Shown here: positions 13 to 2,521 of the stretch, in pieces | Layout of the letters: every line of letters starts with the position of its first letter | Position numbering within the stretch: the stretch's first letter is position 1 | IMG/VR virus record: IMGVR_UViG_3300022198_000022 | Coordinates: 1-22,336 of that record | Direction: 5' to 3' (one strand) | Length of the DNA stretch: 22,336 nucleotides | Source of the DNA: a virus | Translations under genes and position numbers: made by a program | The notes under the pieces: model-generated | Told to the model about the DNA's origin: nothing | Database searches by the model: none | Seen by the model: only the letters and a program-made list of their open reading frames with translations

Positions 13-468
13 CTAGCCATCTTTCTTCAGCCCGTGGACGTATCCATTGTGTTTGTTGTATGTAAGCGACTCGCCTCGACCACCCTCAACGTAGCTACAA
101 TGTACCCAGCCAGAATTACCGCCAGTGTAGCACTCAAGAATAAGCTGGTCATAGTCTAGGTTGTCCTCAATCCATTTAGCCAAGTCATAGTTGTCTATGC
201 CTGGAACCTCAAAGTCTGCCGCCTCACCCTTAGCATGCTGGCTGTCTAAACTACTGCCAATAGCAATGCACAACTCTGGGCTGCGGTATCCACTTGATAC
301 CATAAATGGCCCAAACTCGTCACGAATTGGTTGTAATATCTTCTCACATAACATCTCCATTGCTTCTATATGATGCAACTCTGGAGTATTCGGTATGCCT
401 TTACGGTCAGCAGTCTGGCTTTTAACCATCTCCTCCAACGTAAAGTTGGGCGACAGATAATAACTCAT
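13..468 (-). CDS. Endolysin, M15-type zinc D-Ala-D-Ala (carboxy)peptidase
   Basis: A 151-aa protein that looks like a single-domain M15_3/VanY-like peptidase, expected to cut peptidoglycan cross-peptides in the periplasm at the end of infection. Visible motifs are SSGYRSPE (residues 58-65), then SQHAKGEAADFEV (76-88) giving zinc ligands His78 and Asp85, and GWVHCSY (120-126) giving His123; Glu112 in LILE is the likely catalytic acid. There is no signal peptide or membrane segment, so export would depend on a holin. The ATG at 468 overlaps the stop of the preceding basic microgene (ATGA), and the upstream lysine codons give a purine-rich AAGAAGAAA stretch as ribosome binding site. It is the last gene of the lysis cassette in the window; the next gene lies beyond position 1. 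Family assignment is from motif recognition; substrate specificity is inferred. Confidence 0.9.
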   Translation of the reverse strand: MSYYLSPNFTLEEMVKSQTADRKGIPNTPELHHIEAMEMLCEKILQPIRDEFGPFMVSSGYRSPELCIAIGSSLDSQHAKGEAADFEVPGIDNYDLAKWIEDNLDYDQLILECYTGGNSGWVHCSYVEGGRGESLTYNKHNGYVHGLKKDG

Positions 469-584
469 TTCTTTTTCTTCTTAGCTTTCTTGACTGCCTT
501 TAGGTCTGCGCCGGTAATCTTCTTGCGAGGCGAAGCCATTGCAGCCAGCTTCTTCTGCTTTGGTGAATACTTGTTGTATGGCAT
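465..584 (-). CDS. Very basic 39-aa phage microprotein (MPYNKYS family)
   Basis: A 39-aa protein, MPYNKYSPKQKKLAAMASPR then KKITGADLKAVKK and a poly-lysine tail. It has 15 Lys/Arg and one acidic residue. I recognise this family (MPYNKYS...KKITGADFKAL...) from marine T7-like phages, where its function is unknown. The start shown is the second of two consecutive ATGs (587 and 584): the family begins MPYNKYS, and the ATG at 584 forms a TGATG overlap with the stop of the upstream microgene. Its own stop overlaps the endolysin ATG (ATGA), so the two are probably translated together. A role in nucleic-acid binding or membrane interaction is only a guess from charge. The longer ORF in another frame over the same bases is a shadow. 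Confidence 0.85.
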   Translation of the reverse strand: MPYNKYSPKQKKLAAMASPRKKITGADLKAVKKAKKKKK

Positions 585-733
585 CATTTCTTCCTCTTGG
601 CTGTCTTTGCCGATTGCTTGAACGCCTTTGCCGTCGGTGCGCCTTTGCTTCCAGGCTTGCGCATCGTTTCTCCACTACCAGCTTTAATACGTTTACGCTT
701 GGCGTGGATGTTCGCATATAAACCGCGCTTCAT
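584..733 (-). CDS. Very basic 49-aa phage microprotein (MKRGLYANIH family)
   Basis: A 49-aa protein beginning MKRGLYANIHAKRKRIKAGS and ending TAKRKK, with 17 Lys/Arg and one Glu. It belongs to a highly recurrent family in marine podoviruses and cyanophages (MKRGLYANIHAKRKRI.AGSGE.MRKPGSKGAPTA...), which I recognise from memory; no function is known to me. Its ATG overlaps the stop of the holin-like gene (ATGA at 730-733) and its TGA overlaps the ATG of the next microgene. The middle segment SGETMRKPGSKGAPTAKAF is low in hydrophobicity, so a membrane role looks unlikely. DNA or RNA binding is possible but unproven. Confidence 0.88.
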   Translation of the reverse strand: MKRGLYANIHAKRKRIKAGSGETMRKPGSKGAPTAKAFKQSAKTAKRKK

Positions 734-1125
734 TTTGTTACCTTCTTTAACTTTTCTACCGTCCTTAGACCACCAAGTCCAAGCATACCTAAGAGTACAG
801 TCATCAGGCTATCCATGTCAAATACAGGTAACTCTGGTATTTCTACACCCAAGTAAGCACATACAAAAATTGTAACAGGGGCAAAAATAAAGTGCCACCC
901 CATTGCACTCGCCAAAATCCAGCCAAGAAATGGTCTCCAGCCCGCCACAAAGATGCTACGATGCTGTGCCTCTGCCTTGTTTATCTCAAGCTGCCCCATG
1001 ATTTGTTCTTGCATATGTCTTTCTGACATAGTGGCAATCTCATGGGCCAGTTGGGCTTTCTGGTCTTTGTCTTCAATGAATTTGTCTAATAGCCCAGTGA
1101 CAGGCCCAATCAGTGCTTGTAACAT
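730..1125 (-). CDS. Holin-like membrane protein, GTA_holin_3TM type
   Basis: A 131-aa protein with a cytoplasmic-looking charged N-terminal half (residues 1-55, helical, including ALAHEI-type and EINKAEAQHRS segments) followed by WRPFLGWILASAMGWHF (63-79) and hydrophobic stretches at about 67-93 and 107-121 (LMTVLLGMLGLGGLRTVEK). The arrangement 'KAEAQ..S...WRP' before the first membrane helix is the signature I know from the 3-TM holin family of gene transfer agents (PF11351-like). Its role would be inner-membrane permeabilisation so that the M15 endolysin can reach the wall. It starts at ATG 1125, two bases past the TAA of the 36-aa gene, and its TGA overlaps the next ATG. Other small membrane proteins nearby could also be holins, so which one triggers lysis is not settled. 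Confidence 0.8.
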   Translation of the reverse strand: MLQALIGPVTGLLDKFIEDKDQKAQLAHEIATMSERHMQEQIMGQLEINKAEAQHRSIFVAGWRPFLGWILASAMGWHFIFAPVTIFVCAYLGVEIPELPVFDMDSLMTVLLGMLGLGGLRTVEKLKKVTK

Positions 1126-1126
1126 A

Positions 1127-1237
1127 TTACCCCCAGAATGTTTTTACCTTATTGCGTTTGTTTACCCGCTTCTTGTGTTGGCCTGGCCTATGCTTTGGCT
1201 TTTTAGGTTCAAACTTTACTTCTACTTTCTTGGCCAT
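1127..1237 (-). CDS. Basic 36-aa microprotein
   Basis: A 36-aa protein, MAKKVEVKFEPKKPKHRPGQ then HKKRVNKRNKVKTFWG, with 14 Lys/Arg, two His and only two Glu. The start is supported by GAGGGTAAAGG lying just upstream of the ATG at 1237, and the stop is one base before the holin-like ATG. It overlaps the end of the preceding membrane-protein gene by 29 bases in another frame. I believe similar K/R-rich proteins ending in TFWG occur in related marine phages, but this memory is weaker than for the two microproteins nearer the endolysin. Function unknown; the tight fit between two real genes and the strong ribosome binding site are the main evidence. Confidence 0.7.
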   Translation of the reverse strand: MAKKVEVKFEPKKPKHRPGQHKKRVNKRNKVKTFWG

Positions 1238-1436
1238 GTCCTTTACCCTCATGGTTCATCCAGACTGCAAATGCGCCAGTCATCGCGCCAGTCACCACAC
1301 TAACCAGGCCAGCTTGTGAAGGGCTTGGATTAGGCAACGACATAAACCATTCTACCACACGCCAACTCATTAGCGTCATAACCAGCATCATAAAGCGTGG
1401 CAGTATCTTCCACTCAAGTATCTGTTTAGCACTCAT
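1209..1436 (-). CDS. Small membrane protein, possible second holin
   Basis: A 75-aa protein with two predicted membrane segments: about 11-33 (ILPRFMMLVMTLMSWRVVEWFM) and about 41-60 (QAGLVSVVTGAMTGAFAVWM), ending in a charged tail (NHEGKGHGQESRSKV). The WKxLPRFMML...WFM.LP.P...Q...VS...G.MTGAFAVWMNHE pattern recurs in marine phages and is usually left as hypothetical. Size, topology and place between the nuclease and the 3-TM holin candidate make it a plausible holin, antiholin or pinholin partner. The ATG overlaps the TGA of the nuclease gene (ATGA at 1433-1436). The C-terminal 29 bases overlap the next microgene. Family recognition is fair; the lysis role is inference from context. Confidence 0.8.
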   Translation of the reverse strand: MSAKQILEWKILPRFMMLVMTLMSWRVVEWFMSLPNPSPSQAGLVSVVTGAMTGAFAVWMNHEGKGHGQESRSKV

Positions 1437-1846
1437 CGTGCCGCCCTAACTGCCGCAAGCGCCTTATTAAACGAATGCAACTCCGCTTTAGGCGCATCAA
1501 ATAACTGGGGCGACATGCGCTTAGAATATTGTTGCACTTGGGCGATTGGCAAGAACAACGCTTTCCGATGTTGATAGCCCACAAGGCATAATATGTCATA
1601 GTCTTTCTCACTTGGTAAAATTTTATTCTTTTGTCCACTACCAAACTGAAAATGGTACACCGGAGTTCTAGCATCTTTCTCGCCAGATAGCTGCGCAGTC
1701 TTAACTTGTATCCTGATATATTCATCATCTTTCCACGCCAATAAATCCACTTTGTCTTGCTGGCACATCGACACTCGCCAGCCTAATGATAACATAATTC
1801 CCGCTGCCAGGTATTCACCAATCAAGCCCGTGGTTGTCTGACTCAT
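1433..1846 (-). CDS. PD-(D/E)XK endonuclease-like protein
   Basis: A 137-aa protein whose first half fits a small PD-(D/E)XK nuclease of the PDDEXK_5 / resolvase-like kind: TGLIGEYLAAGIMLSLGW (6-23) with Glu11, then DKVDLLAWKD (31-40) with Asp34, and RIQVKT (45-50) giving the Q-x-K pair Gln47 and Lys49. Such enzymes are metal-dependent DNA endonucleases that resolve branched DNA or cut foreign DNA. The C-terminal half (YDILCLVGYQHRKALFLPI) fits the later beta strands of the fold. The gene lies inside the lysis cassette, one base after the TGA of the upstream coiled-coil membrane protein and overlapping the next gene by ATGA. T7 keeps its resolvase (gp3) in the early region, so a late position is unusual. 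Activity is inferred. Confidence 0.75.
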   Translation of the reverse strand: MSQTTTGLIGEYLAAGIMLSLGWRVSMCQQDKVDLLAWKDDEYIRIQVKTAQLSGEKDARTPVYHFQFGSGQKNKILPSEKDYDILCLVGYQHRKALFLPIAQVQQYSKRMSPQLFDAPKAELHSFNKALAAVRAAR

Positions 1847-1847
1847 A

Positions 1848-2258
1848 TCAGGTTCTTACCGCCAGCCAGATTATAAATAACAATAAGGCAGCGCCTAGTC
1901 CAGTTGCAGTCACAACAACCACTACCTCTAGTATTTGCCGCCGTCTTTCTTGCTGCTTGTAAATGGCTTCCTGTCTCTGTTTCCTTATTCTGCCTTCAAG
2001 CTGGATTAAATCTGCCCAGGCTTGTGGGCCGTATGACATGTTCAGAAAGTTCTTGAGTTCCTGTCGCTGCGCTTCCAGCTTCTTCTTGGCTGCGTAAGCC
2101 TGTAACGCCTCCTCCTCAACAGAACCAGCGGCTAATAGCTTCTTAAATATAGGTGGGTTCTTGGCCTGTTTCTCGGCCTGGTCAACGTCAGATGCCATCT
2201 TCATCCAGCGCGACACATCGCCCATACAGGATTCAATGTCTCTGCCAGCAGCAATCAT
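1848..2258 (-). CDS. Coiled-coil protein with C-terminal membrane anchor; true start probably upstream (about 2324)
   Basis: From the first ATG the product is 136 aa. Residues about 55-105 are charged and helical (AYAAKKKLEAQRQELKNFL, RIRKQRQEAIYKQQERRR) and a single strong membrane helix ends the protein (LEVVVVVTATGLGAALLLFIIWLAV). The reading frame stays open for 22 more codons upstream, encoding DPISITAAVSGATAAFNTIK, which looks like the N-terminus of homologous marine-phage proteins (DPIS...AAFN..K...AGR.IE). No ATG, GTG or TTG lies in that stretch. A good AAAGGA site (2333-2338) sits 8 bases before an ATA codon at 2322-2324. The 2258 ATG has only a weak site. The protein is common in these phages and its function is unknown; topology and position suggest a lysis accessory or spanin-like role, which is speculative. 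Confidence 0.82.
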   Translation of the reverse strand: MIAAGRDIESCMGDVSRWMKMASDVDQAEKQAKNPPIFKKLLAAGSVEEEALQAYAAKKKLEAQRQELKNFLNMSYGPQAWADLIQLEGRIRKQRQEAIYKQQERRRQILEVVVVVTATGLGAALLLFIIWLAVRT

Positions 2259-2320
2259 ACTCTTGATAGTGTTAAACGCCGCTGTAGCCCCACTGACAGC
2301 CGCTGTGATGCTAATAGGGT

Positions 2321-2521
2321 CTATGACAGCATTCCTTTCTTTAGAACGTCACAACGCCATTTGATAGGCATTAAGTTTGCTATCTCCCCTACCGCCCTTG
2401 ACATCTCCATAGCGCGGTTACGACACTCTCTCTCAGTATAATATGGGCCTCTAATATCGTGAAATTCTACACAGTTAGTCGGTGAACCAATGACACAAGC
2501 TAGGACAATCGCCTTATACAT
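2321..2521 (-). CDS. Small Cys-containing phage protein, unknown function
   Basis: A 66-aa protein with four cysteines (9, 17, 33, 57), a very short hydrophobic N-terminus (MYKAIVLACVIG) and the pattern GPYYTERECRNRAMEMSR in the middle. I recognise the general form (YKAIV.AC...C.....RGPY.T...C..RA.EM...) as a recurrent small protein of marine phages, located next to the lysis genes. Two disulphides would fit a periplasmic protein, but the hydrophobic segment is too short for a convincing signal peptide and the sequence before Cys9 (V-L-A) is not a proper lipobox. Its ATG overlaps the end of the upstream holin-like gene by 8 bases, and its TAG overlaps the putative ATA start of the next gene. 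Confidence 0.8.
   Translation of the reverse strand: MYKAIVLACVIGSPTNCVEFHDIRGPYYTERECRNRAMEMSRAVGEIANLMPIKWRCDVLKKGMLS

Follow-up and report, generated by a model that had tools for sequence, protein, structure and literature searches.

A probable AUA start codon in a membrane-protein gene of mostly marine phages

Here, we examine a 22,336-base virus record, a metagenomic fragment that we refer to as the window, and argue that one of its genes very probably starts at an AUA codon (positions 2324-2322, minus strand). Comparison across the gene's family shows what points to this start: the position of the codon, the restriction of that position to start codons, an invariant GG core in the Shine-Dalgarno region, constraint on codons 2-22, and the codon's replacement when upstream modules are swapped. 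Many uncultured phages, mostly from marine sources, carry the gene family, and the odd start appears to be kept in dozens of relatives. We also put forward, tentatively, a broader account in which the AUA start of these mostly marine phages was selected, is lost and regained by module exchange, keeps the output of a membrane protein low beside the lysis genes and, in its ATAG form, is tied to translation of the upstream gene.

The gene and its upstream junction

The gene adjoins the PDDEXK_5 endonuclease-like gene of a lysis-side cluster (window 13-1846). The features of the junction and of this cluster are:

2322..2324, minus strand: ATA, proposed here as the start (AUA); numbered codon 0 in the family alignment
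2333..2338, minus strand: Shine-Dalgarno site AAAGGA, with 8 nt between the site and ATA
1848..2324, minus strand: the full gene as read from ATA (the ATA gene), 158 codons plus stop; phrog_32327 (unknown function)
2259..2321, minus strand: codons 2-22 of the ATA gene, lost by a gene finder limited to ATG/GTG/TTG; they hold most of helix 1
2256..2258, minus strand: earliest ATG in the frame, coding for an internal Met; codon 23 when ATA is taken as codon 1
2321..2521, minus strand: upstream gene, 66 aa, with a hydrophobic N-terminus, cysteines and the C-terminal end ...KKGMLS
2323-2321, minus strand: stop TAG of the upstream gene, overlapping ATA as ATAG
13-468: M15 peptidase endolysin
465-587: short basic gene, MMPYNKYSPKQKKLAAM..., with an ATG start
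584-733: short basic gene, MKRGLYANIHAKRKRIKAG..., with an ATG start; overlaps the holin stop as ATGA
730-1125: GTA-type holin
1209-1436: small membrane gene
1433-1846: PDDEXK_5 endonuclease-like gene

At the junction the minus strand reads ...AAAGAAAGGAATGCTGTC ATA GAC CCT ATT AGC..., and the N-terminal peptide of the predicted product is DPISITAAVSGATAAFNTIK. An earlier reading made without database searches (the sequence-only reading) had noted that the frame contains no ATG, GTG or TTG (hereafter NTG) above the ATG at 2258, that AAAGGA lies 8 bases before an ATA, and that the TAG of the upstream gene overlaps this proposed start. These observations were borne out on the minus strand, with AAAGGA at 2338-2333, ATA at 2324-2322 and TAG at 2323-2321 within ATAG, and the frame is open further than had been claimed, from 2348 to 1848, with the 8 codons above the ATA also free of NTG. 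Given how often NTG occurs in the genes of the window, the chance of meeting no NTG is P = 0.32 over 22 codons and P = 0.21 over 30; in the window alone, the missing NTG is weak evidence and not striking. The ATA stands above chance because it is conserved at the exact codon in 62 distinct sequences.

The window protein matches the phrog_32327 profile (E = 1.3e-9, profile positions 2-147 of 152), as do 53 of 53 aligned family members. Among cultured Roseobacter phages its highest identity, about 44%, is to gp68 of phage CRP-603, which belongs to the same family but has a GTG start. Unlike the window gene, none of the phrog_32327 phage records examined starts with ATA; all ATA sequences are uncultured contigs, and a search for a cultured phage with the ATA form found none, the closest phage record being 44% identical. 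In the cultured relatives examined, annotated starts fall either at the Asp-Pro segment, as in CRP-603 gp68 and CRP-4 gp32, or one codon before it, as in CRP-5 gp33 and CRP-345 gp45.

An AlphaFold model (mean pLDDT 85), generated from an alignment of the window and fetched viral-contig sequences, consists of five helices (residues 6-25, 30-55, 59-64, 66-98 and 100-157), the first lying mostly above the internal ATG and the last including a C-terminal transmembrane segment. Searching PDB structures gave no match below E = 0.001, and the structure matches among viral proteins were uncharacterised phage proteins. Pfam matches, seen for some family members, were weak and scattered.

Start codons across the family

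We gathered relatives by protein and with two degenerate DNA patterns that ran from the Asp codon on and left the preceding codon free. Codon 0, which precedes the conserved Asp-Pro, was ATG, GTG or TTG in 149 of 276 distinct profile-matched sequences. NTG stood at codon -1 in 64, ATA occupied codon 0 with NTG at neither codon 0 nor codon -1 in 62, and ATC was found once; no further codon types occurred. In the pattern scan, the window's branch (89 distinct sequences) comprised 58 ATA, 22 ATG, 8 TTG and 1 GTG. In the other branch codon 0 was mostly ATG, and other sense codons were preceded by ATG, GTG or TTG, except in contig L317 (ATC); ATA codons there were always preceded by ATG. Where codon 0 is an internal Ile codon after an ATG, it is ATA in 13 cases and ATT in 9, and where no ATG precedes it, it is always ATA except for the one ATC. 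As internal Ile codons mix ATA and ATT, the uniform ATA elsewhere is therefore not codon bias. This is the pattern expected for a start position, and it would be hard to explain otherwise. The sequence-only reading had proposed aligning homologs: the homologs start at the DPIS/DPIT segment, with 382 of 388 profile matches extending to position 1 or 2 of the profile. A start at MIAAGRDIE, which that reading had named as the contrary case, was seen in none of them. The degenerate pattern had no match in GTDB genome contigs.

Contig L317 (IMGVR_UViG_3300048065_000034), with ATC at codon 0, has AGGAGG at 5 nt and no NTG above; it is a possible AUC start, a single case that could be a sequence error. 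ATA also occurs outside the main group, in L084/L323/L324, L043 and L374; their upstream contexts differ from one another, and none has a gene overlapping the start. In L374, seven consecutive G precede the putative ATA start.

Purifying selection on codons 2-22 matches that on the remainder of the gene, with pN/pS of 0.152 against 0.169-0.207 for the rest (58 ATA sequences). All 62 ATA sequences have GG at -11/-10, even where the sequence upstream is unrelated. The median anti-Shine-Dalgarno duplex is -4.3 kcal/mol in ATA members versus -3.3 in ATG members, and folding energies around the start differ little (-9.2 and -10.8 kcal/mol, respectively). From the upstream in-frame stop to the ATA, 41 of the 62 ATA sequences contain no NTG; the other 21, which count against a start at ATA, carry an in-frame NTG within the upstream gene, at codon -10 and/or -12, and this NTG is not conserved.

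ATA and NTG starts also alternate between close relatives. L176 (ATG) and L010 (ATA) share 95% identity over the gene but 22% upstream of it, the break falling at codon 0, and the same pattern was seen for L110 (ATA) versus L094 (TTG) and L143 (ATA) versus L116 (TTG). Placing ATA on a careful protein tree, built without codon 0, required 10 changes, at least 8 of them forced by well-supported branches. Many of these swaps probably arose by recombination at the junction, so that not all of them are independent mutations. When the junctions of L176, L010, L094 and L110 are set against that of the window above 2324, the upstream gene is seen to be exchanged among close relatives, with the break at the start codon or within a few bases of it; a start codon at the break therefore travels with the upstream module.

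Several other readings of the ATA can be weighed against these data. Since the window is a metagenomic fragment, one might suspect that the ATA was introduced in sequencing or assembly, or that the gene is decaying and has lost its ATG. However, the same codon recurs in 62 distinct sequences from many samples, their frames are intact under purifying selection, and near-identical contigs from other metagenomes (L001, L002, L007, L186 and L191) carry the same ATA, which is therefore not one assembly's error; these replicate contigs refute the idea, and we give it practically no weight. The lost ATG that the sequence-only reading had entertained likewise conflicts, as a recent loss, with 62 conserved copies across several lineages. 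Its further option, a short protein made from the ATG at 2258, has in its favour that this is the first ordinary start and that the codon-23 ATG is the first NTG in 57 of 62 ATA sequences. Yet codons 2-22 are constrained like the remainder, a short form would miss most of helix 1 in the AlphaFold model, and the Met at codon 23 is equally conserved as an internal residue in relatives with ATG at codon 1 (22 of 22) and absent in some ATA relatives (the L084 group), making this option extremely unlikely.

If ribosomes shifted by -1 where the upstream gene ends (CTG TCA TAG to ATA GAC), the two proteins would be fused; ATA would then simply encode Ile, and TAG would be retained to stop the upstream frame. 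A frameshift would likewise preserve the third base A, and in 46 ATA sequences the upstream frame does extend to TAG over the ATA or is truncated by the end of the contig. Against it, 16 of the 62 lack an upstream gene running in that frame at the junction (the stop lies at -14 to -26), the alignment of upstream sequences shows no evident slippery heptamer, relatives have ATG, GTG or TTG at the same codon, and the module swap replaces exactly codon 0 with ATG. We regard frameshifting as very unlikely; a start at the ATA, which the sequence-only reading had also offered, is what the comparison supports.

Overlap with the upstream gene and putative role of AUA

The ATA overlaps the upstream stop as ATAG in 46 of the 62 ATA genes, some of them cut by contig ends. 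Among scored sequences the upstream stop lies at +1 in 41 of 58 with ATA and in 0 with NTG, the latter usually having it at -2, -3 or -4. In nearly all members the second residue is Asp (GAY), or Glu. An Asp codon there makes the common ATGA overlap impossible, whereas ATA-GAY gives ATAG. This possibility probably explains why overlapping members favour AUA over AUU or CUG as a weak start. In the other 16 ATA sequences there is no overlap and the upstream gene ends 14-26 nt before the start, in contexts that include the L175 type, L008/L170, L043, L084/L323/L324 and L374. The overlap is therefore not the whole cause of the ATA and is not needed to keep it.

These figures bear on whether the ATA start is purely a by-product of overlap, with the upstream TAG fixed in place and weak initiation tolerated rather than selected. 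The stop at +1, which ATA-GAY allows and ATG-GAY cannot, fits such a by-product. But ATA is kept in several contexts that have no overlapping gene, and some relatives manage an overlap in other ways, by TAATG or by an upstream frame that reads past the ATG. We consider the by-product explanation a serious one, if rather doubtful.

With a start at AUA, the AAAGGA site 8 nt upstream would place ribosomes at the codon, initiator fMet-tRNA would pair with it with a third-position mismatch, and the product would be a protein of 158 residues beginning fMet-Asp-Pro-Ile. Weak initiation at AUA may hold this membrane protein at a low level, and that weak output is the reason AUA was selected seems to us plausible but short of probable. 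If AUA was indeed selected, output would depend on the initiation fidelity of the host (IF3, temperature, growth state). In the ATAG members, ribosomes ending the upstream gene might step back and restart. The stop/start overlap that marks termination-coupled reinitiation pairs is present in the window, as ATAG, and we see coupling to upstream translation in overlapping members as an evenly balanced prospect; the 16 ATA sequences that have no overlap show that it cannot apply throughout. The arrangement resembles the ATGA and TAATG overlaps of phage operons, in which stop and start share bases, a setting for coupled reinitiation. The window has an ATGA of its own at 730-733, between the holin end and the next small gene, whereas the ATA gene shares ATAG.

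Known near-cognate starts and consequences for annotation

Natural AUA starts are, to our knowledge, very rare among described bacterial genes. The AUU start of E. coli infC has a third-position mismatch with initiator tRNA and limits expression, and an AUG-to-AUA mutation of the T4 rIIB start gives a temperature-sensitive phenotype, which would be consistent with initiation at AUA that is genuine but weak. Our search of the open literature, incomplete in coverage, found no phage AUA start. For E. coli pcnB, an AUU start is described as limiting expression (Binns and Masters 2002, as cited in PMC13009471). The ATA gene is like infC and pcnB in its third-position mismatch and differs from them in that theirs is AUU, in cellular genes, with infC self-regulated by IF3. 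In S. aureus, initiation profiling revealed AUA starts for infC and ccpN, and AUA reporters of ccpN and citZ gave about 10-30% of AUG (PMC13009471). Our proposed AUA start, like theirs, comes after a strong Shine-Dalgarno site; they are Gram-positive chromosomal genes, whereas ours is a phage gene. Also unlike the S. aureus cases, the phage family mostly overlaps the upstream stop, and ATA and NTG alternate among close relatives. In a reconstituted system with IF3, mismatched codon-anticodon pairs gave very little product (PMC10158994); IF3 disfavours such pairs, and the yield from AUA could therefore be very low.

Three traits expected of a natural AUA-initiated gene were found here: AUA where homologs have NTG, a Shine-Dalgarno site at proper spacing, and coding constraint directly after the proposed start. 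Because AUA alternates with AUG, UUG and GUG among close relatives, the effect of a near-cognate start is directly measurable on an otherwise equal gene, and the ATA gene is a natural system in which to study translation initiation that is very weak or coupled.

An altered genetic code was considered and rejected: there is no tRNA in the window, and ATA is ordinary there, at 31% of Ile codons. Scanning the window for similar cases, we found none other among real genes with conserved similarity well above the first NTG. Across all fetched loci, a consistent non-NTG codon occurred only in the ATA-gene family (55 ATA of 57 flagged); the remaining flagged genes were antisense shadow frames or had scattered codons, and the neighbouring endonuclease family, flagged with ATT, CTG or CTT, has an ordinary ATG further upstream. 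For gene finders limited to ATG, GTG and TTG, 41 of the 62 ATA genes would be called from an internal codon, dropping the conserved N-terminal segment, and the other 21 could be extended into the upstream gene.
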